Shown here piece by piece: positions 6,884 to 15,825 of a stretch of DNA of 37,110 bases; position 1 is the first letter of the stretch; each line of letters opens with the position of its first letter. The stretch comes from Clostridiales bacterium. Lineage in GTDB: Bacteria > Actinomycetota > Coriobacteriia > Anaerosomatales > SLCP01. Location: contig JAGXSG010000015.1 of the NCBI GenBank assembly GCA_018333995.1, positions 1-37,110 on the forward strand, in the 5' to 3' direction. The notes beneath the pieces are model-generated. The model was not told where the DNA came from, ran no database searches, and saw only the letters and a program-made list of their open reading frames with translations. The position numbers were made by a program, and so were the translations under genes.

Positions 6884-7576
6884 TTACGAGTCATCCCGGG
6901 TAGGCAGTGACCGAGCCATGTGGCAGTATGCGCAATCGTCCATCACGGCCTCGTGACATTCGGCGCATGAATCCATCGGGGGGACCGAAGTTCCCCTAAC
7001 ACCTTCGTGTCCAGCACCCTGGTGGCAATCCATGCACGACATGCCTTCTCCCTCGACGTGCACCCGGTGGTTGACCCGAATTTGGCCAGAAAGCGAAAAC
7101 ACCCTGTTAAGCGAGTGACATCCACTCTGCTGGCATGACTCGTTAGTCACTTCTGAGGTGCGAAACAACGTGACCCGGCCGCCGGTGATCACGATGACGA
7201 TATCTTTGTAGATCGTCGCCCGATAGATCGCCCGATTGATCACTCCGGGCTTTGCATGACAGTGCAGACACGTATAGGCCGCACCACGATGGCGGGATGT
7301 TGACCATGTCTCGTAGTACGGCCTCATAGCGTGACACGTCGCACACGCTCGAGGATTAGCGGTGAACGCGGCGGGAATCGTGTAGAAGACCAAGAACGCC
7401 ACTCCTGCAATGATCCACACCTTGACTCTGCGGCTCATTCTCTTGCGTGGAGGAACAGCGGAAGATGCGGCATCCTGGCCCTCCGCTTTGTCGCTTTGAA
7501 CGGTTGCTCCCGAGTCGTCGGAAACCATCGGTTCCTCAGGTGCGCTCGCGCCACTCTGTGGCGTGAAGCCGGTCAC
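6884..7576 (-). CDS. Membrane-anchored hexaheme cytochrome c, NapC/NrfH-like
   Basis: A 230-residue protein with a cytoplasmic N-terminus (about 48 residues), one membrane helix (VWIIAGVAFLVFYTIPAAF) and an exported heme domain. It has five CXXCH sites (CATCH, CLHCH, CMDCH, CAECH, CAYCH) and one CX4CH site (CQQSGCH), so probably six hemes. The first pair, CATCHAMRPYYETW ... SRH ... CLHCH, matches the NapC/NirT/NrfH quinol-oxidising pattern with a Met after heme 1. It is the last gene of the seven-gene operon. The start is GTG at 7576 with AGGTGG 7 bases upstream, 11 bases after the previous stop. Likely role: moving electrons from the quinone pool to the exported cytochromes. The partner is unknown. 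Confidence 0.85.
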   Translation of the reverse strand: MTGFTPQSGASAPEEPMVSDDSGATVQSDKAEGQDAASSAVPPRKRMSRRVKVWIIAGVAFLVFYTIPAAFTANPRACATCHAMRPYYETWSTSRHRGAAYTCLHCHAKPGVINRAIYRATIYKDIVIVITGGRVTLFRTSEVTNESCQQSGCHSLNRVFSLSGQIRVNHRVHVEGEGMSCMDCHQGAGHEGVRGTSVPPMDSCAECHEAVMDDCAYCHMARSLPTRDDS

Positions 7577-7587
7577 GGACGTACCAC

Positions 7588-8502
7588 CTATCGGACGAAC
7601 TCTACAGCGGGATCGTAGTTGCCCGGCGGGAGTTCACCGTGACACTCGATACAGAACGAATCTTCATGGCACACCTCGCAGTTGCGTGGAGAACGCGCGG
7701 CGACTATGTCCCGGTGCGCAGCTCGCCACTCTGAAGGATTGGTTCCCGTTCCGTGTGAACGCGGACGCCTCTCGTGACACTCCCTGCACCAGTCTTCGCG
7801 CCAAGCGTGGCATGTCTGACAGTCGATCTCAGACTGTCTCTCTGCGTGATCAACGATGAACGTCGGTTCCTGGTGGTTCGCGGGTATTCCTTTTTCGGTA
7901 TGACACGCGTCGCACGCTTCGTCCGCTGTCACTCCGTCGTGACACGTCAGACATGTTGCCATCCGGGGGGTGGTAGAGATTGCCGGGTCGGCGTTATGCA
8001 CGAGTTCACCGACGTGACACACGATGCAGTCGACCCCTAGCGCATCGACATGCGCGGTGTGCGGAATAAGCAGATCCCCAGCTGGAGAAACGCTCCTCAG
8101 GTCAACATGGCATCCATTACACGCTGCGGTAGGTGGCGTGCTCAGCGTCGCAGGTTCACGCAGCGCGGGCAGAAGGGCGAGATATGCCTCTCCGACCATG
8201 CGTACCGCATAGATCGACTGGGCCACGGGACCAGGATCGACATGGCAGCTCTGGCACGGCACGTTCGCATGGGTCGAGTTGGCCCATGTCGCCTGGTATG
8301 CGCCCAGTCCCTCAAAGCGCTCATAGAAGGATGGTTGATTAGCGGTGTAGCCTGGGCCAAGAACCAGCACAGAAAAGACCACGAGTAGCAGTGCGGCGCG
8401 CCAGTACCTCCGGGCATACGCGACGACGGCGCGCATGCCCCGGCCCGCCGCCTCTGCGACCCGTCGCACTCCTTGGTTCCTCTTGGCGCTCTCCGCTGAC
8501 AA
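7588..8502 (-). CDS. Membrane-anchored nonaheme cytochrome c
   Basis: A 304-residue protein with a basic N-terminus, one membrane helix (ALLLVVFSVLVLGPGYTA, about 35-55) and a large exported domain carrying nine CXXCH sites (CQSCH, CNGCH, CIVCH, CLTCH, CDACH, CQTCH, CRECH, CEVCH, CIECH). No CXXCK or other active-site variant is seen, so it is probably an electron carrier rather than a reductase. Its C-terminal third (CRECHERRPRSHG ... AH ... CEVCHEDSFCIECH) shares a module with the neighbouring cytochromes. The start is TTG at 8502, with GAGGAG 5 bases upstream. It is the sixth gene of the operon. The heme count is read from motifs only. Confidence 0.85.
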   Translation of the reverse strand: MSAESAKRNQGVRRVAEAAGRGMRAVVAYARRYWRAALLLVVFSVLVLGPGYTANQPSFYERFEGLGAYQATWANSTHANVPCQSCHVDPGPVAQSIYAVRMVGEAYLALLPALREPATLSTPPTAACNGCHVDLRSVSPAGDLLIPHTAHVDALGVDCIVCHVGELVHNADPAISTTPRMATCLTCHDGVTADEACDACHTEKGIPANHQEPTFIVDHAERQSEIDCQTCHAWREDWCRECHERRPRSHGTGTNPSEWRAAHRDIVAARSPRNCEVCHEDSFCIECHGELPPGNYDPAVEFVR

Positions 8503-8532
8503 CGTCTCTCCTCGGCAGTCAGAATGTCATCG

Positions 8533-9354
8533 TTAGTGGCAGTTCAGGCAGTACTGCTCGTCGTGACAGAACATGCAGCCCTCGCTGTTCGCGGCCGCTC
8601 GCGGCGCGTGCAACGTCTTGAAGTTGCCCTCGTGGCTGCGCGGCCGTTCTTGGTGGCACTCAGCACAGAAATCTGGTGTCCACGCATGGCACTGTCCACA
8701 GTCCTGTTTCGCGCTCTCTTCTTGATGGACCTGGAGCCAATCAGGCTGCAGATGGTCTTCGGGTACATCCTTTCGCGTGTGGCACTTGATGCACTCCTCG
8801 CCCGCAGTCTCACCGTCATGACACGTGTCCATGCACATCTCCATAGGCGGCCGATTCAGACCGAGGGGGTTCTCGTAGTGTACAAGCTGCAAGTGACAGT
8901 CGACGCACTCGACTTCGAGTATCTCGATGTGCGCTCGGTGCGGGATCAGAAGATCGCCATCCGCGGAGACCGTCCGGTTGATGGTATGACACCTCAGACA
9001 CGCCTCCGTCGGGGGCGGACCAAACAGGTGCTCTTCACCCGGCCCGCGCAGGAGCTGCGCGTAGAAAGCGGGAACCGACTGAAAGCCATGAAGAATGTGC
9101 GGCCAGACACCCGGCGAAATGTGGCAATCCGCGCAACTCATGAGCGCGTGCGTCGATTCCTCCCAGAAGTGCATGGACTCGCGCAACTCCGGATAGCGCT
9201 CGTAGTAGGGCGACTGCAGCTTAACGATTCCCGGAAGAATGAGCAGAACCGCGACAACGAGCAAGGCGAGGAGGACTAGAACGGTTCTGCGCCTCTTCCC
9301 TGGCCGAGCGGGCTTCTCGCCCGCCACGAGCGTCTGGCCGTCATCGCGGTCCAC
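8533..9354 (-). CDS. Membrane-anchored nonaheme cytochrome c (paralogue)
   Basis: A 273-residue protein with one N-terminal membrane helix (VLVLLALLVVAVLLILPGIV) and eight CXXCH sites (CADCH, CLRCH, CVDCH, CIKCH, CGQCH, CAECH, CMFCH, CLNCH) plus one CX3CH (CMDTCH), so about nine hemes. It is clearly a paralogue of the adjacent gene at 7588-8502: same length class, matching spacing, and the segment LLIPHRAH versus LLIPHTAH. The protein ends directly at its last heme motif (YCLNCH). The GTG start at 9352-9354 abuts the TAA stop of the upstream gene, with AAGGAG 9 bases before it. Exported electron-transfer role inferred. Confidence 0.85.
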   Translation of the reverse strand: MDRDDGQTLVAGEKPARPGKRRRTVLVLLALLVVAVLLILPGIVKLQSPYYERYPELRESMHFWEESTHALMSCADCHISPGVWPHILHGFQSVPAFYAQLLRGPGEEHLFGPPPTEACLRCHTINRTVSADGDLLIPHRAHIEILEVECVDCHLQLVHYENPLGLNRPPMEMCMDTCHDGETAGEECIKCHTRKDVPEDHLQPDWLQVHQEESAKQDCGQCHAWTPDFCAECHQERPRSHEGNFKTLHAPRAAANSEGCMFCHDEQYCLNCH

Positions 9355-10371
9355 TTACCGCATCTCCTTAAACTGGTCGTGGCAATGATCGCAGTATGTC
9401 TGCTCGTGACACGTCATGCACTGACCCTCAACCTTCACGGCATCCTGGTGAGCACCAATCCACATCCCCTCAGGCCCGTGTGATGCTGGCCGCTGTGCGT
9501 GACAGTTCTGACACGGCCCAAGAGAAATGTGGCACGTAAGGCACGCGGACTGATCGCGAAGCGCGCGTGGACCGTGAGTTCTGGTCCAATCCGCTTGTGC
9601 ATGTTCCGCCTCGAGGGCATCGCGCTCCGTCTGATCCGGCACTCCCTCAAACGGCGACTCTCCCGTGGTGTGACACTGGCGGCACTGTGACACATCGTGA
9701 CACAACTCGAGACATCCACCGTCGCCGCTTGTGAACACCACGCTTGGATGGAGTGTGGCCCACTCCTCCGGCTCCTCAAGCAGTGAGTGGTGGCAACTAG
9801 CGCATTCGTCCATGCGCTTCCATCCCGAGTGACATCCGTACGCCGAGCACAAGCCGCTGAACTCCATCGTCTTGTGCTCTTCCATGTATGGTTCCTGATG
9901 CGCCGTCCACTTATGACACTCGACGCACTCTCGTGTTTCCTCAGACAGCCGCAAGTGCGCAGGATGGGGAATTCGGGTGGTTCTCTCCGCGTCGGCACTC
10001 CAGGTTTCCTCGTGGCACACAATGCACGCGTCGGCGCGGGGTGTCTCAAACTCGATGTACGCGAGCTCAGTCTCCGGCGAAAGAACCGTGCGGTAGAAGT
10101 CGGCGACACGGGCAAACGTACCGAGCAAGCGACCGCGCGAGTCAACGTGACACTGACCGCATGTCATCCCGGTATGCATGGACGCCTGCAACGAGGCGCT
10201 GTTGTCTGTGAGCTCAGCGACCCGCCCGATGACGGCAGGCTGAGACATGAGCGTTGCGGGAAGCCCGATCGTGATAATCAGCAAAACCGCCACCAGCCCG
10301 ACCAAGACCTTCACCCGTCTAGGCGTCTTGCGCAGGCGAGCGGCGCACTTCTCGAGGAAGTCGGTGATCAC
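9355..10371 (-). CDS. Membrane-anchored cytochrome c with about eleven hemes
   Basis: A 338-residue protein with one N-terminal membrane helix (VLVGLVAVLLIITIGLPATL) and an exported heme domain. Nine CXXCH sites are visible (CGQCH, CIVCH, CVECH, CASCH, CRQCH, CLTCH, CQNCH, CMTCH, CDHCH), plus one CX4CH (CSAYGCH) and one CX3CH (CLELCH). The C-terminal module CQNCHAQRPASHG ... CMTCHEQTYCDHCH is shared with the neighbouring cytochromes. The GTG start overlaps the stop of the NrfD-like gene by four bases (GTGA), which indicates tight coupling to the quinone-site subunit. No catalytic heme variant is seen. Confidence 0.85.
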   Translation of the reverse strand: MITDFLEKCAARLRKTPRRVKVLVGLVAVLLIITIGLPATLMSQPAVIGRVAELTDNSASLQASMHTGMTCGQCHVDSRGRLLGTFARVADFYRTVLSPETELAYIEFETPRADACIVCHEETWSADAERTTRIPHPAHLRLSEETRECVECHKWTAHQEPYMEEHKTMEFSGLCSAYGCHSGWKRMDECASCHHSLLEEPEEWATLHPSVVFTSGDGGCLELCHDVSQCRQCHTTGESPFEGVPDQTERDALEAEHAQADWTRTHGPRALRDQSACLTCHISLGPCQNCHAQRPASHGPEGMWIGAHQDAVKVEGQCMTCHEQTYCDHCHDQFKEMR

Positions 10372-11684
10372 GGGCCGCTCACCCCTCTTTCGGTCACCGG
10401 TCCAGCCATGTGCGCCGACACGACCGGTGCCGTGCCACCTGGCGCAGGATACAAAGCGTGAGCATCGCCGTGCCCGTGAGCGTGCCCGTGGCCGTGCTCA
10501 CTTTCCGGCTCCTCCATCGGCAGCACCTTGACCGCGAGCGTCACGAGAGCGATGCCGAAGGCAAGGACTCCCACCGCAAGCAGTATCTCGACCAGACTAG
10601 GCACATAAACCCCCTGGAACTGGCCGAGCGTGTCGTACACGAAGCCCATTCCCAGTAAGGAGTAGCGCTTAAAGAAGATCGCAACGACATAGAGTATGGC
10701 TGCCGTGATCTGAACGGAAGCCAGGTGTCTCGTAGAGCGACGCGACAGCAACACGAAAGATGTGAGACCAAGAGCGAGCACCGGCAGAAAGATCGGCGCA
10801 TAGGCACCGGTGAAGAACTCGGCCATCCTGATAGAGTAATACGGCGAGGTCGACGTTCCCCAGAAGACGACGATCATCTCGACGGCCAACAGGAACAGGT
10901 CGATGATGATGACTGTGGCCAGCAGGGTGGACAGACTCCTGAACATTGATGGCTTGAACTTGTAGCCCGCGAAGTGCTGGACGATATACGCGAAGATAAG
11001 TAGCAGCGCGATTCCTGATGCTGTCGCGGAAGTCAGGAATATCGGAACCATGATCGCGGTATGCCACAGTTCACGTGACTTGTTGAGCGCGAGGACAAAC
11101 GCCGTCGTGGTGTGCAGGTAGATCGCGAATGGTAACGCGATGAGCGTCATGCGATGAGCGAGTTTCTCTCCACCCTTGCGGGTGATCATGACCCACAGGT
11201 CGATGAAGCAGATGATCATATATATTGCGGCCGCGCTACCGGTGAAAACGAATGGAGCGGTAAAGTTAGGTGTGATCATGAACCACACCGCACGCCACGG
11301 GAGCTTCATGTCGCTCAAGAGGCCGAGCAAAGCGAGCATGACGAGTACTCCGGCCTGGAGCACCGCGAACCGCGCGAGAGGACGGTACTGTTCCGCGCCG
11401 AACAGATGAACGCTCGCGTACACCACGAGCCCGCCGGCTGAAAGGCCTACGTAGTACATGTAGTTCACGAACCACAGGCCCCACGGACTGGAGTCGCGCA
11501 TCGCGAGCACCGCGCCGCCGTGCCTGAGCAGCTCCGTCCATGAAATGGCCGCTAGTCCGATGAAGATGCCGAGAATGGCCATAAATGCCCAGTACCGCGG
11601 ACCCGCCGTCTTGAGCGCCCCAAAGTTCCAGTCGATCCCAATGAACCGCTTGACTCCTGGGCGCTTCACTACGATTTCACTCAC
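10368..11684 (-). CDS. NrfD/PsrC-family membrane quinone-site subunit with His-rich tail
   Basis: A 438-residue polytopic protein with about ten hydrophobic segments, of the NrfD/PsrC/DsrP/HybB type that exchanges electrons with membrane quinones. It follows a Tat-exported ferredoxin, the usual partner arrangement, and overlaps the 11-heme cytochrome gene by four bases. The C-terminus after residue about 395 is unusual: HGHGHAHGHGDAH, a metal-binding-like His cluster, then a Pro/Ala-rich tail. No molybdopterin subunit is encoded nearby, so electrons probably pass to or from the cytochromes. The GTG start at 11684 has AGGGTG 7 bases upstream. DsrP- or QrcD-like is the closest description; the exact subfamily cannot be settled by reading. 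Confidence 0.88.
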   Translation of the reverse strand: MSEIVVKRPGVKRFIGIDWNFGALKTAGPRYWAFMAILGIFIGLAAISWTELLRHGGAVLAMRDSSPWGLWFVNYMYYVGLSAGGLVVYASVHLFGAEQYRPLARFAVLQAGVLVMLALLGLLSDMKLPWRAVWFMITPNFTAPFVFTGSAAAIYMIICFIDLWVMITRKGGEKLAHRMTLIALPFAIYLHTTTAFVLALNKSRELWHTAIMVPIFLTSATASGIALLLIFAYIVQHFAGYKFKPSMFRSLSTLLATVIIIDLFLLAVEMIVVFWGTSTSPYYSIRMAEFFTGAYAPIFLPVLALGLTSFVLLSRRSTRHLASVQITAAILYVVAIFFKRYSLLGMGFVYDTLGQFQGVYVPSLVEILLAVGVLAFGIALVTLAVKVLPMEEPESEHGHGHAHGHGDAHALYPAPGGTAPVVSAHMAGPVTERGVSGP

Positions 11685-11690
11685 GCGGCA

Positions 11691-12626
11691 TCACCCTACG
11701 TACCAGATCATGGGCTCGCAACCGAGGCCCTCTTTAAGACGGAAAACCTTCTTGGTCTTGAGAATCTGTGTCACAGCGCTCTCCGGATCATTGAGATCTC
11801 CAAAGGTTCGAGCGCCGACCGGACACGCCTCAGTACACGCTGTGTTCATGCCATTCCTTGTCCGGTGGATACAAAACGTACACTTCTCGATCACCTTCGC
11901 CTTGTCCTTGTGCGGGACCTTCGGATTGATGTCGTTTTCCGGAATGTATGGGTACGCCCAGTTGGCGTGCCGAGCACCATACGGGCAGGTGACCAGGCAA
12001 TTCTTGCAGGAAATACACTTCTTGTAGTCCATGACTACGATTCCGTCAGGCTCTTTCCACGTGGCCTTGATAGGACATCCCAGTACACAGGGCGGTATGC
12101 CGCAGTGCATGCACTGCACCGGGAGATACCAAAAATCCCTATCTCCGGCCTCCGTGAAATCGAGACGCGCATACTCCAGCTTGAGCGCGGCAAGCGGCAT
12201 CTCCAGGATCTTGATGTACTGGAATCCGCCGTTCCGAGGAAGGTTGTTCTCGCGAACACACGCGTATACACACCGGCGACATCCCACACACGCGTTGACG
12301 TCAATGACCATGGCCCAACTCTGGTCGCCCGCTTTGTCTGCGTAATAGACGGGCTCGCCTGGATAACACATTGGATCATTCACGTCGCGGAAGTAGTCCA
12401 GCGGATCACCGCCCTCGGGAGCGGCCGCGCCAGCCGAAGAGGCGAACAGCGTAGCGAACGCCGGTACCGTACCTGCGGCAAACACACCGAGAAGCACGCC
12501 AGCACCCTTAAGAAACCCCCTCCGCGTCACGTCATCCGCGATCCGTTCGGCACGCGTTTCGTACGTCTCCTCAGCGCCAATGGCGGCCTCGGAATAGCCA
12601 GCGTCCGAGTGTCGCTCGTCAGTCAT
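11691..12626 (-). CDS. Tat-exported 4x[4Fe-4S] ferredoxin subunit (HybA/DsrO/NrfC-like)
   Basis: A 311-residue protein with a twin-arginine signal (TRRGFLKG near residues 34-41, then GVLLGVFAAGTVPAF). The mature part has four cysteine clusters typical of electron-transfer subunits of respiratory complexes: CVGCRRCVYAC, CMHCGIPPCVLGC, CISCKNCLVTC and CTFCIHRTRNGMNTAC/CTEACPVGA. It would sit on the outer membrane face and pass electrons between the NrfD-like quinone site (next gene, 6-base gap) and cytochromes. Its start shares one base with the stop of the tetraheme gene. In DsrMKJOP and Qrc complexes the same pair occurs; here the catalytic subunit is missing. Confidence 0.92.
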   Translation of the reverse strand: MTDERHSDAGYSEAAIGAEETYETRAERIADDVTRRGFLKGAGVLLGVFAAGTVPAFATLFASSAGAAAPEGGDPLDYFRDVNDPMCYPGEPVYYADKAGDQSWAMVIDVNACVGCRRCVYACVRENNLPRNGGFQYIKILEMPLAALKLEYARLDFTEAGDRDFWYLPVQCMHCGIPPCVLGCPIKATWKEPDGIVVMDYKKCISCKNCLVTCPYGARHANWAYPYIPENDINPKVPHKDKAKVIEKCTFCIHRTRNGMNTACTEACPVGARTFGDLNDPESAVTQILKTKKVFRLKEGLGCEPMIWYVG

Positions 12627-13366
12627 CAGTTCGACCTCCCTCGGACAAGTGCGATAGCTAGACCTGCGGCCAGTGCCACGCCAAGGATCGCGAGCACCTG
12701 AAGGTACTCAGGATCTCGATGACCGGCTTGCACAGGCGGTCCAGCCATCGGGGTAAATGTGGTGGACTCCGAAAGGATTGAGAACTGAAAGCCGTTGCCC
12801 ACGAACGGGAGCAATCCCTCAGCGAAGATGAAGCCCGGCGTGTGCGGGTCGTGACAGCCGGCGGACGAACACTTCTGCTCGCCCGCACCGTGTATCCCCG
12901 CCTCAAACTCACGGTATATCGCAGAGTGGCACCGATAGCACACCCGCGACACATCGCCTGTGATAGCTACGAGCGTACCGTCCGCTAGCTTGAGTCTGCC
13001 GGGATCTCCCGCCGCAGTGTCATGACAGGCAGCGCACGCGGCTCTTCCCTCGCCGAGCGACGCGTGGCCATGCAGCGTGATCTGGTGGCGAGTAAATCCG
13101 TTGGGTAGCGTACGCCCCTGCTCGATCTCGCGCTGGGTGACGGGGTGACACGCGGAGCACGGATAAAAGAGTGGCTCGCCCGTGGCCGCCCTACCCGTCA
13201 CCGGTAACGTCCCCTCGGCGGCTGAAGCGCTGCCGGCAAACGCAAGACATGCGACGGTGAACGAGAGTGCGACCCCGAAGATAGTGATCGATGTCCACCG
13301 ACTACTCAGTGCACGTATCGGGTACTGATCAGACGTTGCGTGTTCCACTGCGTCTATGGCGGACAC
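12626..13366 (-). CDS. Exported tetraheme cytochrome c with C-terminal membrane anchor
   Basis: First gene of the operon. It carries three CXXCH sites (CSACH, CAACH, CYRCH) and one CX4CH (CSSAGCH), so about four hemes. A signal-peptide-like region (ITIFGVALSFTVACLAFAGSASA) precedes them, and a membrane helix (VLAILGVALAAGLAIALV) lies at the C-terminus. By position it is the DsrJ/QrcA/ActE-like small cytochrome of the NrfD-ferredoxin complex. The start is uncertain: GTG at 13366 has GAAGG 5 bases upstream and gives 246 residues; frames as far as 13450 are open but do not improve the signal peptide. The stop overlaps the ferredoxin start by one base (TGATG). Confidence 0.8.
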   Translation of the reverse strand: MSAIDAVEHATSDQYPIRALSSRWTSITIFGVALSFTVACLAFAGSASAAEGTLPVTGRAATGEPLFYPCSACHPVTQREIEQGRTLPNGFTRHQITLHGHASLGEGRAACAACHDTAAGDPGRLKLADGTLVAITGDVSRVCYRCHSAIYREFEAGIHGAGEQKCSSAGCHDPHTPGFIFAEGLLPFVGNGFQFSILSESTTFTPMAGPPVQAGHRDPEYLQVLAILGVALAAGLAIALVRGRSN

Positions 13367-13632
13367 ACCACCCTTCGTCACGTGGCGAGGAAGAGCGTCA
13401 GCCTCTATTAGCCGTTCTCCTCCGCTACCACACATCTTACACAAACACATTCTGCACGATGATGCGGCCCCTGACGTACTTTGCTAATTGCTTCACGCAC
13501 CCTACAACACATTGTGCCACGATGCACGCAACAGCGTGTACGATACTGTAGGAAGACAAGAAGTCGCAAGCACTCTATCAATTTGCCCGTCGCCAATGAA
13601 ATCACCCCGGCGACCGGTGACGCGGAGGCAGG
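13367..13632. promoter_or_regulatory. Divergent control region between the two cytochrome operons
   Basis: A 266-base AT-richer gap, part of which may encode the N-terminus of the tetraheme protein. It should hold the promoters of both cytochrome transcripts. For the plus strand a weak pair is TTGCTA-16-TACAAC near 13482-13509. An inverted repeat CACGC-AACA-GCGTG lies at 13525-13538 and could be an operator. No FNR-type TTGAT-n4-ATCAA site was seen. All are low-confidence readings. Confidence 0.35.
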
Positions 13633-14685
13633 ATGCACGTCTCGATCCGGAGAAAACGCGTGAAGCGCTCGCCTGGGCGTTCTTGGCGTCCGCGGCTTCC
13701 CCGCGTGAGTGGCGCGCTCATTCTCGGCGCAATCGTGGGAGTCGTCTTTGCGGCGCTGCTCGCAACCGCCGCCCTCCTCGAAGGAGCCGGACGCTCCCCC
13801 GCTCTGGCCGGCGTGTGCGGCTCGTGTCATGAGATCGCCCCCCACGTCGCCGCGTGGAGAGCTTCTACGCATGCGAACACGGGGTGCCGCTCATGTCACA
13901 CCGAGTACGCGTGGTACCAGGGTCCACTGTATCGAATCACCGCGCTTGCCGACGATGTCTCCAGATTCGTGTCCCGAGAGCCCACGCCAGCGAGAGAACC
14001 TGAGCTCCCCCGTCCGGCAACCCTGGGGATTCCCGATAACGTCTGCCTGCGCTGCCACTCGATGACCCGCGAGCCGAGCACGGGCGACCGGGTCATCATC
14101 GACCACGCCGATCATGCCGAGCGCAACGACGCGTGCCTGTCGTGTCACCTCAACACCACGCACCCTGACCCGGAGACCGACATCGTGCTCCTCATGATGG
14201 AGCAGTGCTACGAGTGCCACTCGCTCACCCCCGCCCCCGGCGAGCCTTCCGGGGAGTGCGCGGTGTGCCACCCCGCGCACTTGGAGCTGACACCCGCATC
14301 GCACGACCCGATCGGCGAGTGGCTCAGGCCAGCTCACGGTGACAGCGCCAAGACAGACACCACGCAGTGCATGATGTGTCACACCGAGCAGTACTGCGTC
14401 GACTGCCACGGTGTCTTGATGCCTCATCCGCCCACGTTCGCGCAGGATCACGGCGAGGAGGCCGCGCTGAAGCGCGATGCCTGCGACATGTGCCATGCCC
14501 CAGCAGCCGACATCGACCCGTGCAGCGCGTGCCATCATCAAGGATCCGAACCCACCCAACCCTGGGTCCAGCAACACATGTACGCCGTGCGCGACGCCGG
14601 ACCTTCCGCCTGCTTCGACTGCCACAAGCCCCGGTACTGTGGGCGATGCCACGTGCGTGGCCGACCGAACGCTGGTTCGCTATAG
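13633..14685 (+). CDS. Membrane-anchored 12-heme cytochrome c, twin A
   Basis: A 350-residue protein: basic N-terminus, one membrane helix (ALILGAIVGVVFAALLATAA, about 28-48), then an exported domain with twelve CXXCH sites (CGSCH, CRSCH, CLRCH, CLSCH, CYECH, CAVCH, CMMCH, CVDCH, CDMCH, CSACH, CFDCH, CGRCH). The first pair (CGSCHEIAPHVAAW ... SHA/THA ... CRSCH) resembles the NapC/NrfH quinol-side pattern. The start ATG at 13633 has GGAGG 4-5 bases upstream. It is transcribed away from the seven-gene cytochrome operon and directly before a near-identical twin. Likely an electron carrier; no active-site variant heme motif is visible. Confidence 0.87.
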   Translation: MHVSIRRKRVKRSPGRSWRPRLPRVSGALILGAIVGVVFAALLATAALLEGAGRSPALAGVCGSCHEIAPHVAAWRASTHANTGCRSCHTEYAWYQGPLYRITALADDVSRFVSREPTPAREPELPRPATLGIPDNVCLRCHSMTREPSTGDRVIIDHADHAERNDACLSCHLNTTHPDPETDIVLLMMEQCYECHSLTPAPGEPSGECAVCHPAHLELTPASHDPIGEWLRPAHGDSAKTDTTQCMMCHTEQYCVDCHGVLMPHPPTFAQDHGEEAALKRDACDMCHAPAADIDPCSACHHQGSEPTQPWVQQHMYAVRDAGPSACFDCHKPRYCGRCHVRGRPNAGSL

Positions 14686-15615
14686 TGGGAACGGATTTGG
14701 CTACGCATCGTGTTTCTGCTGGTAGCCAGCGGGGATTCGCGATAGCTTGGAGCTTGCGAAATGGCGTCTTCAGGGTCGCGACCCGCTAACCGGAGGGTTC
14801 GCATGAAAAGACCGGACATCACAGGGGCATGGAATCGAGCGCGGCGCCATCGCGGGGCGATGATCGCGATCTCTTTAGTGGGCGCCATGCTGGTGATCGT
14901 GCTCGCAACCGCCGCCCTCCTCGAAGGAGCCGCCCGCACCCCCGCTCTCGCCGGCGTGTGCGGCTCGTGTCATGAGATCGCCCCCCACGTCGCGGCGTGG
15001 AGAGCTTCTTCGCATGCCAACACAGGGTGCCGTTCATGTCACACCGAGTACGCGTGGCACGATGGCTTCAGGTATCGCGCAACAGACTTCGCCGATGAGG
15101 TCTCGCAGTACCTCTCGGGCGATGCCGCCCAAGCCGCGCAACCCGAGCGCCGAGGAGCCGTCGGTCCGATTGCCGAGACTCCCGATAACGTCTGCCTGCG
15201 CTGCCACTCGATGACCCGCGAGCCGAGCACGGGCGACCGGGTCATCATCGACCACGCCGATCATGCCGAGCGCAACGACGCGTGCCTGTCGTGCCATCTC
15301 AACACCACGCACCCTGACCCGGAGACCGACATCGTGCTCGTCATGATGGAGCAGTGCTACGAGTGCCACTCGCTCACCCCCGCCCCAGGCGAGCCTTCCG
15401 GGGAGTGCGCGGTGTGCCACCCCGCGCACCTTGAACTGACACCCGCATCGCACGACCCGATCGGCGAGTGGCAGCGGCCAGCTCACGGTGACAGCGCCAA
15501 GACAGACACCACGCAGTGCATGATGTGTCACACCGAGCAGTACTGCGTCGACTGCCACGGTGTCCTGATGCCTCATCCGCCCACGTTCGCGCAGGATCAC
15601 GGCGTGGAGGCCGCG
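13758..15615 (+). repeat. Tandem duplication of cytochrome coding sequence
   Basis: The twin genes share two long blocks. Block 1 is 13758-13914 versus 14901-15057, covering the end of the membrane helix and hemes 1-2. Block 2 is 14031-14466 versus 15180-15615, 436 bases with about a dozen differences, covering hemes 3-8. Between the blocks and after block 2 the genes diverge strongly. The pattern points to recent duplication or repeated gene conversion of the core. Confidence 0.9.
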
Positions 15616-15825
15616 TCTCTCGACCGCGTCGTGTGTTCCGGGTGCCACTACGCAGCCCCCGATCCCTGCAGCGCGTGCCATCACTCGCTCGAAGGCGCTG
15701 TCATCGATACGTGGGGGACACAGCACTACCGTGTGACGCGGATACAGGGACCAGCCGCTTGCATGCGTTGCCACGAAGCGGTCTTCTGCGCGCAGTGCCA
15801 CGGACGAGGCTCTACGCCTCAATAG
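14803..15825 (+). CDS. Membrane-anchored 12-heme cytochrome c, twin B
   Basis: A 340-residue tandem paralogue of twin A with the same plan: one membrane helix (ISLVGAMLVIVLATAALL) and twelve CXXCH sites (CGSCH, CRSCH, CLRCH, CLSCH, CYECH, CAVCH, CMMCH, CVDCH, CSGCH, CSACH, CMRCH, CAQCH). Hemes 3-8 are nearly identical in protein sequence to twin A. The linker after heme 2 and the C-terminal third with hemes 9-12 differ, which may change the docking partner. The start at 14803 (ATG AAA AGA) has GGAGG 6 bases upstream; the longer frame from 14761 has none. It ends 15 bases before the convergent sensor kinase gene. Confidence 0.87.
   Translation: MKRPDITGAWNRARRHRGAMIAISLVGAMLVIVLATAALLEGAARTPALAGVCGSCHEIAPHVAAWRASSHANTGCRSCHTEYAWHDGFRYRATDFADEVSQYLSGDAAQAAQPERRGAVGPIAETPDNVCLRCHSMTREPSTGDRVIIDHADHAERNDACLSCHLNTTHPDPETDIVLVMMEQCYECHSLTPAPGEPSGECAVCHPAHLELTPASHDPIGEWQRPAHGDSAKTDTTQCMMCHTEQYCVDCHGVLMPHPPTFAQDHGVEAASLDRVVCSGCHYAAPDPCSACHHSLEGAVIDTWGTQHYRVTRIQGPAACMRCHEAVFCAQCHGRGSTPQ

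Follow-up and report, generated by a model that had tools for sequence, protein, structure and literature searches.

A locus that joins a ferredoxin/NrfD pair to a long series of multiheme cytochromes, with no catalytic subunit among them, raises the question of where its electrons come from and where they are delivered. In the window (the whole stretch of 37,110 nucleotides from contig JAGXSG010000015.1 analysed here), all nine genes of this locus are found as the original prediction had drawn them: a seven-gene operon on the minus strand and two divergent genes for 12-heme cytochromes on the plus strand. The operon runs in the order 4-heme cytochrome, Tat ferredoxin with four [4Fe-4S] sites, NrfD, and 11-, 9-, 9- and 6-heme cytochromes, with successive genes spaced by -1, 6, -4, 0, 30 and 11 bases (negative values being overlaps). 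The heme motifs, previously put at about 63, come to 63 when Cx3CH and Cx4CH sites are counted together with CxxCH (4, 11, 9, 9, 6, 12 and 12 per cytochrome), 58 of them being CxxCH; on the DNA, the CxxCH pattern matches 65 times in the window, compared to 2.2 matches expected by shuffling (shuffle maximum 6).

The first three genes of the operon encode the candidate quinone module. The 4-heme cytochrome c7 (12626..13450, minus strand; 3 CxxCH and 1 Cx4CH) has a helix at residues 55-73, assigned as N-terminal signal or anchor, and a C-terminal transmembrane helix at residues 251-269. It is followed by the ferredoxin FeS (11691..12626, minus strand), whose profile matches are DsrO/QrcC/PsrB-like and which carries the twin-arginine motif TRRGF; Pfam confirms a four-cluster ferredoxin, and 16/16 cysteines are invariant across 25 sequences. 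NrfD itself (10368..11684, minus strand) matches Pfam PF03916 with 112 bits (cut-off 25.8) and exhibits nine hydrophobic helices, at least eight being expected of the family; its best-matching model is DsrP, and it is the single NrfD-family protein matched in the genome. A search with PF14589 (NrfD_2) gave no match in the genome and none in the controls either. Residue D125 of NrfD aligns with His139 of ActC, a position described as the quinone protonation site in the first helix bundle (PMC8076601), and either D or E occupies it in 14/14 sequences.

The remaining genes encode anchored cytochromes: the 11-heme c4 (9355..10371, minus strand), identified by its motifs and by orthologs in the order, with one N-terminal transmembrane helix; the 9-heme c3 (8533..9354, minus strand), with a NapC/NrfH-like N-terminus and one transmembrane helix; its paralog and sister clade, the 9-heme c2 (7588..8502, minus strand), with an N-terminal transmembrane helix; and the 6-heme c1 of the NapC/NrfH family (6884..7576, minus strand; 5 CxxCH and 1 Cx4CH). 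Divergently from these are transcribed the 12-heme NapC/NrfH-family cytochrome d1 (13633..14685, plus strand), whose family is kept in the order, and its tandem copy d2 (14761..15825, plus strand); the DNA of the two genes is mostly 90-100% identical in the core, with diverged ends. Matches of c1, c3, d1 and d2 to PF03264 reach 38.0, 25.9, 38.3 and 42.8 bits against a cut-off of 24.1, with one N-terminal helix each, and none of the four reaches the NrfH equivalog cut-off. Structure searches added little: AlphaFold models of c4 and d2 (pLDDT 59 and 49) are too poor for a complex or a reliable fold, Foldseek with the c4 model returned only NrfH (E 0.08), and sequence searches of the PDB (E 0.01) gave no relative of c4, while d2 and c2 drew nothing beyond weak matches to NrfH and to cytochrome c7. 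Domains of cell-wall or S-layer type were not detected in any gene of the locus.

Four named complexes that share such a trio were considered and rejected. The DsrO and DsrP models score highest for the ferredoxin and NrfD, and a small cytochrome lies beside them as in DsrJOP; however, this cytochrome has 4 hemes rather than 3, the DsrO and DsrP equivalog cut-offs are unreached (173.5 bits against 200 and 115.6 against 350), and genes for DsrM and DsrK are missing both from this locus and from among the operon genes of its relatives, so that DsrMKJOP was rejected. QrcABCD was likewise discarded, as the locus encodes no molybdopterin-family protein and the QrcC and QrcD equivalogs reach only 149 of 400 and 37 of 570 bits. 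Alternative complex III is excluded by a ferredoxin of 311 amino acids without the molybdo-like fusion of ActB and by a single NrfD where that complex has two, whilst for NrfABCD no match to PF02335 (NrfA) exists among the nine proteins. Scores against the Nhc-related HmcB and HmcC models are far under cut-off. We found no open-access paper that names the operon; the consulted passages of the published genome paper list multihemes and no NrfD-linked exit complex.

The gene order recurs: 4-heme/FeS/NrfD/11/9/9 is present in 21/21 orthologous loci read, which span many families of the order, and none of these loci encodes a molybdoenzyme. In total, the locus is present in 31 of the 69 genomes of the order surveyed (Anaerosomatales/OPB41), and its core order also occurs, again with no molybdoenzyme in the locus, in a single genome from a different class of actinobacteria (L125 = G577). 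NrfD orthologs and the 11-heme gene co-occur in nearly identical genome sets, while c1 is kept in some relatives and replaced by a 12-heme gene in others. Related 9/9/6/12-heme cytochromes are found elsewhere without NrfD, which suggests that quinone modules are exchangeable among related heme chains. Two further genomes of the order (G075, G141) contain a related trio, with NrfD 37-40% identical, followed by an NrfA-like protein (PF02335, E 2e-37). At first look, and with kinship ignored, locus-bearing genomes hold a median of 23 candidate cytochrome-like genes and the others 11.

The wider genome agrees with the host and electron donor foreseen at the outset: menaquinone synthesis of the futalosine type is encoded, and Omp85 is absent from the genome, as expected for a monoderm. 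Further multiheme genes are abundant, including ones for 20- and 24-heme proteins. Outside the locus, which was correctly described as having no catalytic subunit, the genome encodes two molybdoenzymes, neither of which is consistently present with it. A PhsA-like enzyme occurs in 2/69 genomes and was rejected as a conserved partner of a locus found in 31; a formate dehydrogenase-like gene is enriched (25/31 locus-bearing genomes against 15/38 others, Fisher p 0.0007), but is missing from six locus-bearing genomes and thus not an obligatory partner. Judged by gene content, a conserved molybdoenzyme partner is absent. From the order itself, two isolates have been described with undetectable respiratory quinones, and the one of them that reduces Fe(III) is reported to lack genes for the ferredoxin and membrane-anchor subunits of molybdoenzyme complexes (PMC9686372): the locus may therefore be absent there and may be dispensable for Fe(III) reduction, which speaks against the reading favoured below.

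What the sequence shows directly is which genes are present, how they are arranged in an operon, how well they are conserved, and which cofactor motifs and membrane anchors they encode. We favour, with real room for doubt, a membrane menaquinol:multiheme-cytochrome oxidoreductase that has no dedicated catalyst and feeds external acceptors in a monoderm. NrfD would bind menaquinol close to the membrane's outer face and probably couple its oxidation to ion translocation, with the four-cluster ferredoxin accepting the electrons; these would pass through the 4-heme c7 and the anchored 11-, 9- and 9-heme cytochromes to the 6- or 12-heme NapC/NrfH-type cytochrome. Some 40 to 60 hemes at the outer face probably carry quinol electrons in this manner to external or partner acceptors; the chain would act as a hub supplying cytochromes of the wall zone or cell surface whose genes lie elsewhere, and final acceptors could be extracellular, for example metal oxides or partner cells. 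That all subunits join in a single complex, that electrons run from quinol to cytochrome, that ions are translocated and that the chain ends outside the cell is what we infer from these features.

Such an arrangement has precedents. The original prediction, which held that the trio always stands with a catalytic partner, was mistaken in this: NhcABCD (PMC8076601), Geobacter Cbc4 (PMC11434368) and two cluster types of the Methanoperedenaceae (PMC7082337, PMC7327174) combine a ferredoxin, an NrfD-type protein and multiheme c cytochromes without a molybdo-subunit, and a dedicated conduit from quinol to cytochromes is hence of a known kind. Cbc4 (CbcSTU), matched here by gene content, is an operon of a c-type cytochrome, a DsrO-related iron-sulfur protein and a membrane subunit (CbcU, called a b-type cytochrome yet compared with NrfD), proposed as a menaquinol:ferricytochrome c oxidoreductase and tied to extracellular electron transfer (PMC11434368); it has three genes, whereas the conserved locus here adds four to six large anchored cytochromes in a monoderm lineage. 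In Methanoperedenaceae, also cells without an outer membrane, the NrfD-type menaquinone:cytochrome c oxidoreductase has been put forward as a way for electrons to reach metal oxides (PMC7082337, PMC7327174); the likeness is drawn from cluster descriptions, in another domain of life, and the cytochromes of one operon there carry 3 and 6 hemes as opposed to 4, 11, 9, 9, 6 and/or 12 here. Desulfovibrio NhcABCD, alike by description down to a ferredoxin with four clusters (PMC8076601), has one 9-heme subunit, in contrast to several anchored cytochromes here, some with NapC/NrfH-like N-termini. The Gram-positive conduit of Thermincola (ImdcA, PdcA, CwcA, OcwA) likewise starts electron exit from anchored multihemes without an outer membrane (PMC7911101), and c1, c3, d1 and d2 recall NapC/NrfH/CymA; unlike in these systems, the quinone module here is the NrfD/ferredoxin pair, and anchored cytochromes of 6 to 12 hemes share one locus. 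The dedicated conduit as first proposed is backed in part, by the recurrent gene order, menaquinone synthesis and the lack of Omp85. Among electron-exit complexes, whose general type was known before, the locus would be a new, order-wide variant of unusual size.

Nhc and Qrc are both described as cytochrome c3:quinone oxidoreductases (PMC8076601), and electrons could likewise run inwards here, from cytochromes reduced on the outside by way of c7, then the ferredoxin, to NrfD and on to menaquinone. Hydrogenase- or formate dehydrogenase-linked cytochromes, or an external donor, would be the sources: a [NiFeSe]-like hydrogenase and the formate dehydrogenase-like enzyme are each encoded near 20-heme cytochromes, and the latter gene is enriched with the locus. 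We consider this unlikely, however: six locus-bearing genomes manage without that gene, four or five large cytochromes far exceed the need of one soluble carrier, and the closest architectural analogs, those of metal reducers (Cbc4, Methanoperedenaceae), are interpreted as quinol oxidases.

The heme ligands bear on whether any cytochrome of the locus could act as a terminal reductase in its own right. Proximal histidines of c7, c4, c3, c2 and d are 100% conserved (21-22 sequences), including those at the Cx3CH/Cx4CH motifs in c4 and c7, with one of c1 at 67% (3 sequences). Invariant distal histidines number 11 for the 11 hemes of c4 and 4 for the 4 hemes of c7 (22 sequences each), and 8 for the 9 hemes of both c3 and c2, where an invariant methionine (Met171 and Met181, respectively) sits near the unpaired heme. 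Such counts are those of hemes serving as a wire, with no active site standing plainly open. An unrecognised Nrf- or Mcc-like reductase of nitrite, sulfite, polysulfide or another small molecule could be sought in the one or two hemes of c2, c3 and d that lack an invariant distal histidine, and the NrfA-like protein behind the related trio speaks for it; yet no window gene matches a catalytic cytochrome family, the ligands of c4 and c7 are complete, the methionines lie near the unpaired hemes, and unpaired NrfH-type hemes are usual at the quinol sites of NrfH/NapC, which makes this reading improbable. Weaker still, and very improbable, is a quinol-oxidising feeder for a molybdoenzyme from another part of the genome, for instance the PhsA-like one at the C1/C12 contig ends: neither molybdoenzyme adjoins an NrfD, leaving that of the locus as the only one found, and the PhsA-like gene neighbours a ferredoxin and 5- and 6-heme cytochromes, but this enzyme is far rarer than the locus and, at 91% identity to one in a distant family, looks like a recent transfer.

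The menaquinol:cytochrome oxidoreductase may be taken one step further, to a possible, though on balance doubtful, supercomplex, assembled in advance, of an NrfD quinol oxidase that pumps ions and a stack of four to five anchored NapC-type cytochromes (about 40-60 hemes), the stack by itself bridging the monoderm wall zone. This stack would be an exchangeable module, and elsewhere among the actinobacterial classes a cytochrome b would serve it, or it would have no quinone module of its own. With ligands and gene order conserved almost perfectly, the complex lends itself to biochemical tests. The locus offers a well-delimited and conserved candidate for how electron exit begins in Anaerosomatales, a little-known order of anaerobic subsurface Actinomycetota of which some members are iron-reducing. 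Because related cytochromes occur both with NrfD and without it, quinol oxidation that conserves energy could be compared with quinol oxidation that does not, each feeding related heme chains.

The locus proved to be organised as originally predicted, with a seven-gene operon, two divergent 12-heme genes and 63 heme motifs (CxxCH, Cx3CH and Cx4CH together; 58 are CxxCH). Across the window, the CxxCH DNA pattern matches 65 times against approximately 2 expected. On the minus strand, from 13450 to 6884, seven genes follow one another with spacings of -1, 6, -4, 0, 30 and 11 bases (negative values denoting overlap), distances small enough to indicate one operon: c7 (4-heme cytochrome), FeS (Tat ferredoxin), NrfD, c4 (11-heme), c3 and c2 (9-heme each) and c1 (6-heme). 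The 12-heme genes d1 and d2 (13633–15825, plus strand) run in the opposite direction and form a mosaic tandem pair: their core DNA is mostly 90–100% identical, interrupted by a diverged stretch around alignment positions 301–420, and both ends are only 37–60% identical, pointing to either gene conversion or a recent, partial duplication. Both carry Ile at the NrfH-type CxxCHxM methionine site, where most relatives have Met. Housekeeping genes surround the locus (polA, glutamine synthetase, threonyl- and valyl-tRNA synthetases, clpX, clpP and trigger factor).

Recurrence of the gene order in relatives was also confirmed: each of the 21 orthologous loci read preserves c7-FeS-NrfD-c4-c3-c2. In most of them a 12-heme or 6-heme gene comes next (some instead have a 12-heme gene upstream), and a response regulator and histidine kinase are close by in most. 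The c4 gene is present in 31 of the 69 genomes of the order (Anaerosomatales/OPB41), one being a weak match and possibly a paralog (genome G109), and is almost always accompanied by the orthologous NrfD, the exceptions being fragmentary contigs or weak matches. About 30 genomes of the order encode an NrfD ortholog with 60–72% identity, and the next-closest relatives stand at ~40%; the records with names comprise unclassified Coriobacteriia/Actinomycetota MAGs plus one that carries the label Anaerosomatales.

The operon NrfD, the sole NrfD-family protein found in this genome (98.9% complete), matches PF03916, with DsrP as best family model at a score under the DsrP cut-off, and nine hydrophobic helices are predicted. 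Its Asp125 aligns with ActC His139, a quinone-site residue (PMC8076601), and this position is D or E in 14/14 sequences. The ferredoxin has a twin-arginine motif and exactly 16 invariant Cys (25 sequences aligned), sufficient for four [4Fe-4S] clusters. An MqnA/D-family gene and a UbiD-UbiA-UbiX cluster (UbiD and UbiX recognised by eye) indicate futalosine-route menaquinone synthesis; in the published description of the order, respiratory quinones were not detectable in two isolates (PMC9686372). Omp85 was not found in the genome by a search positive in 7/14 control genomes, as would be expected of a monoderm cell. The most likely route is from menaquinol to surface cytochromes: NrfD would oxidise menaquinol near the outer face of the membrane, probably with ion translocation by analogy to its family (PMC8076601), and electrons would pass via the ferredoxin and c7 to the 11/9/9-heme proteins, from which, or from the NapC-type 6/12-heme proteins, they would reach surface cytochromes encoded elsewhere. 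The genome holds many further multiheme genes, the largest with 20 and 24 hemes; some of them lie near a [NiFeSe]-like hydrogenase and a formate dehydrogenase-like enzyme. First-look cytochrome-like candidates, a crude measure, have a median of 23 in genomes with the locus against 11 without (~2x). The 24-heme protein (670 aa; locus L090, 1896–3908, contig C21 of this genome, G000) has a NapC/NrfH-type N-terminal domain. Both hydrogenase subunits (large and small) are encoded a few genes away from a 20-heme cytochrome (L086, 77–8634; G000:C3, about 118–127 kb), where direct hydrogen-to-cytochrome wiring is possible. Electron flow through the complex in the opposite direction is a rival to the menaquinol-oxidising route.

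All cytochromes of the locus but c7 (c4, c3, c2, c1, d1 and d2) carry a single hydrophobic helix, at the N-terminus; c7 carries two, one at either end. NapC/NirT family matches were obtained for c1, c3, d1 and d2, and for the poorly modelled c4 NrfH was the sole plausible structural match (E 0.08, not significant). Counting invariant His outside the heme motifs as distal ligands (alignments of 21–22 sequences), c4 (11/11 hemes) and c7 (4/4) have a full complement and therefore look like pure bis-His wires. The counts for c3 and c2 (8/9 each) and the 12-heme family d (10/12) make an open or quinol-site heme possible; invariant Met residues near the ligand gap (c3 Met171, c2 Met181) are plausible sixth ligands. 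A hidden catalytic cytochrome among the locus products is a second rival.

That the locus feeds a molybdoenzyme is the remaining rival. The genome encodes two molybdopterin proteins: one PhsA-like, found in 2/69 genomes of the order (91% identity between distant families), and one formate dehydrogenase-like, found in 40/69, 15 of these lacking the locus, and missing from six locus-bearing genomes, some >90% complete. On these distributions neither can be an obligatory subunit; the locus has no conserved molybdoenzyme partner. The formate dehydrogenase-like gene is nevertheless associated with the locus (p 0.0007, genomes counted as independent of phylogeny), which fits a donor role. It lies at L091 2823–16221 (G000:C21, about 43–57 kb) beside a ferredoxin, 6-, 7-, 13- and 20-heme cytochromes and a b-type cytochrome, with an in-frame TGA, possibly selenocysteine, near its N-terminal part. 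The PhsA-like gene sits at a contig end (L092 502–3237, G000:C1; start of L089, G000:C12), where C1 and C12 apparently overlap; its 91% match is limited to a single further genome of the order, one from a different family.

This kind of complex is already known: catalyst-free combinations of iron-sulfur protein, quinone-reactive membrane subunit and multiheme cytochrome c occur in Nhc (PMC8076601), Cbc4 (PMC11434368) and Methanoperedenaceae NrfD clusters (PMC7082337, PMC7327174). The present locus differs from all three in the number and size of conserved anchored cytochromes and in lineage. We found no paper naming the operon in the open-access literature, and the accessible portion of the description of the order, which reports 17–18 multihemes per isolate, does not mention one of this kind (PMC9686372). 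There, the iron-reducing isolate is described as lacking the ferredoxin and anchor subunits that belong to molybdoenzyme complexes, so that the locus may be missing from it, which would count against a requirement for Fe(III) reduction.

Relatives of the parts of the locus also occur apart. In two genomes of family f6 (L083, 9452–12399 and 7449–9431; L095), a diverged 3-heme/ferredoxin/NrfD trio is directly followed by an NrfA-like protein (cytochrome c552-like, with extra hemes), possibly as an NrfD-linked nitrite reductase; the trio is hence modular and joined there to a catalyst. In other actinobacterial classes (L149, L151, L152), relatives of the 9-heme pair have 7-heme and small membrane proteins as neighbours, which by eye resemble b-type cytochromes, and no NrfD. 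In another class (L153, 6386–11150, genome G343), 10-, 10-, 6- and 12-heme relatives lie together, the 6-heme gene grouping with c1 and the 12-heme gene with d in the tree; neither NrfD, ferredoxin nor an evident cytochrome b/quinone module was found beside them, so quinol oxidation there may fall to the NapC-type members themselves. A complete, more distant copy (L125, genome G577, labelled Slackia, from African mines and placed in another class) has an NrfD of 42% identity and both 6-heme and 12-heme genes, and falls within the clade of each of c1, c2, c3, c4 and d. The paralog set is therefore older than the order or was transferred en bloc, and, with relatives of its cytochromes found beside different or no quinone modules, cytochrome chain and quinone module seem to be exchangeable.
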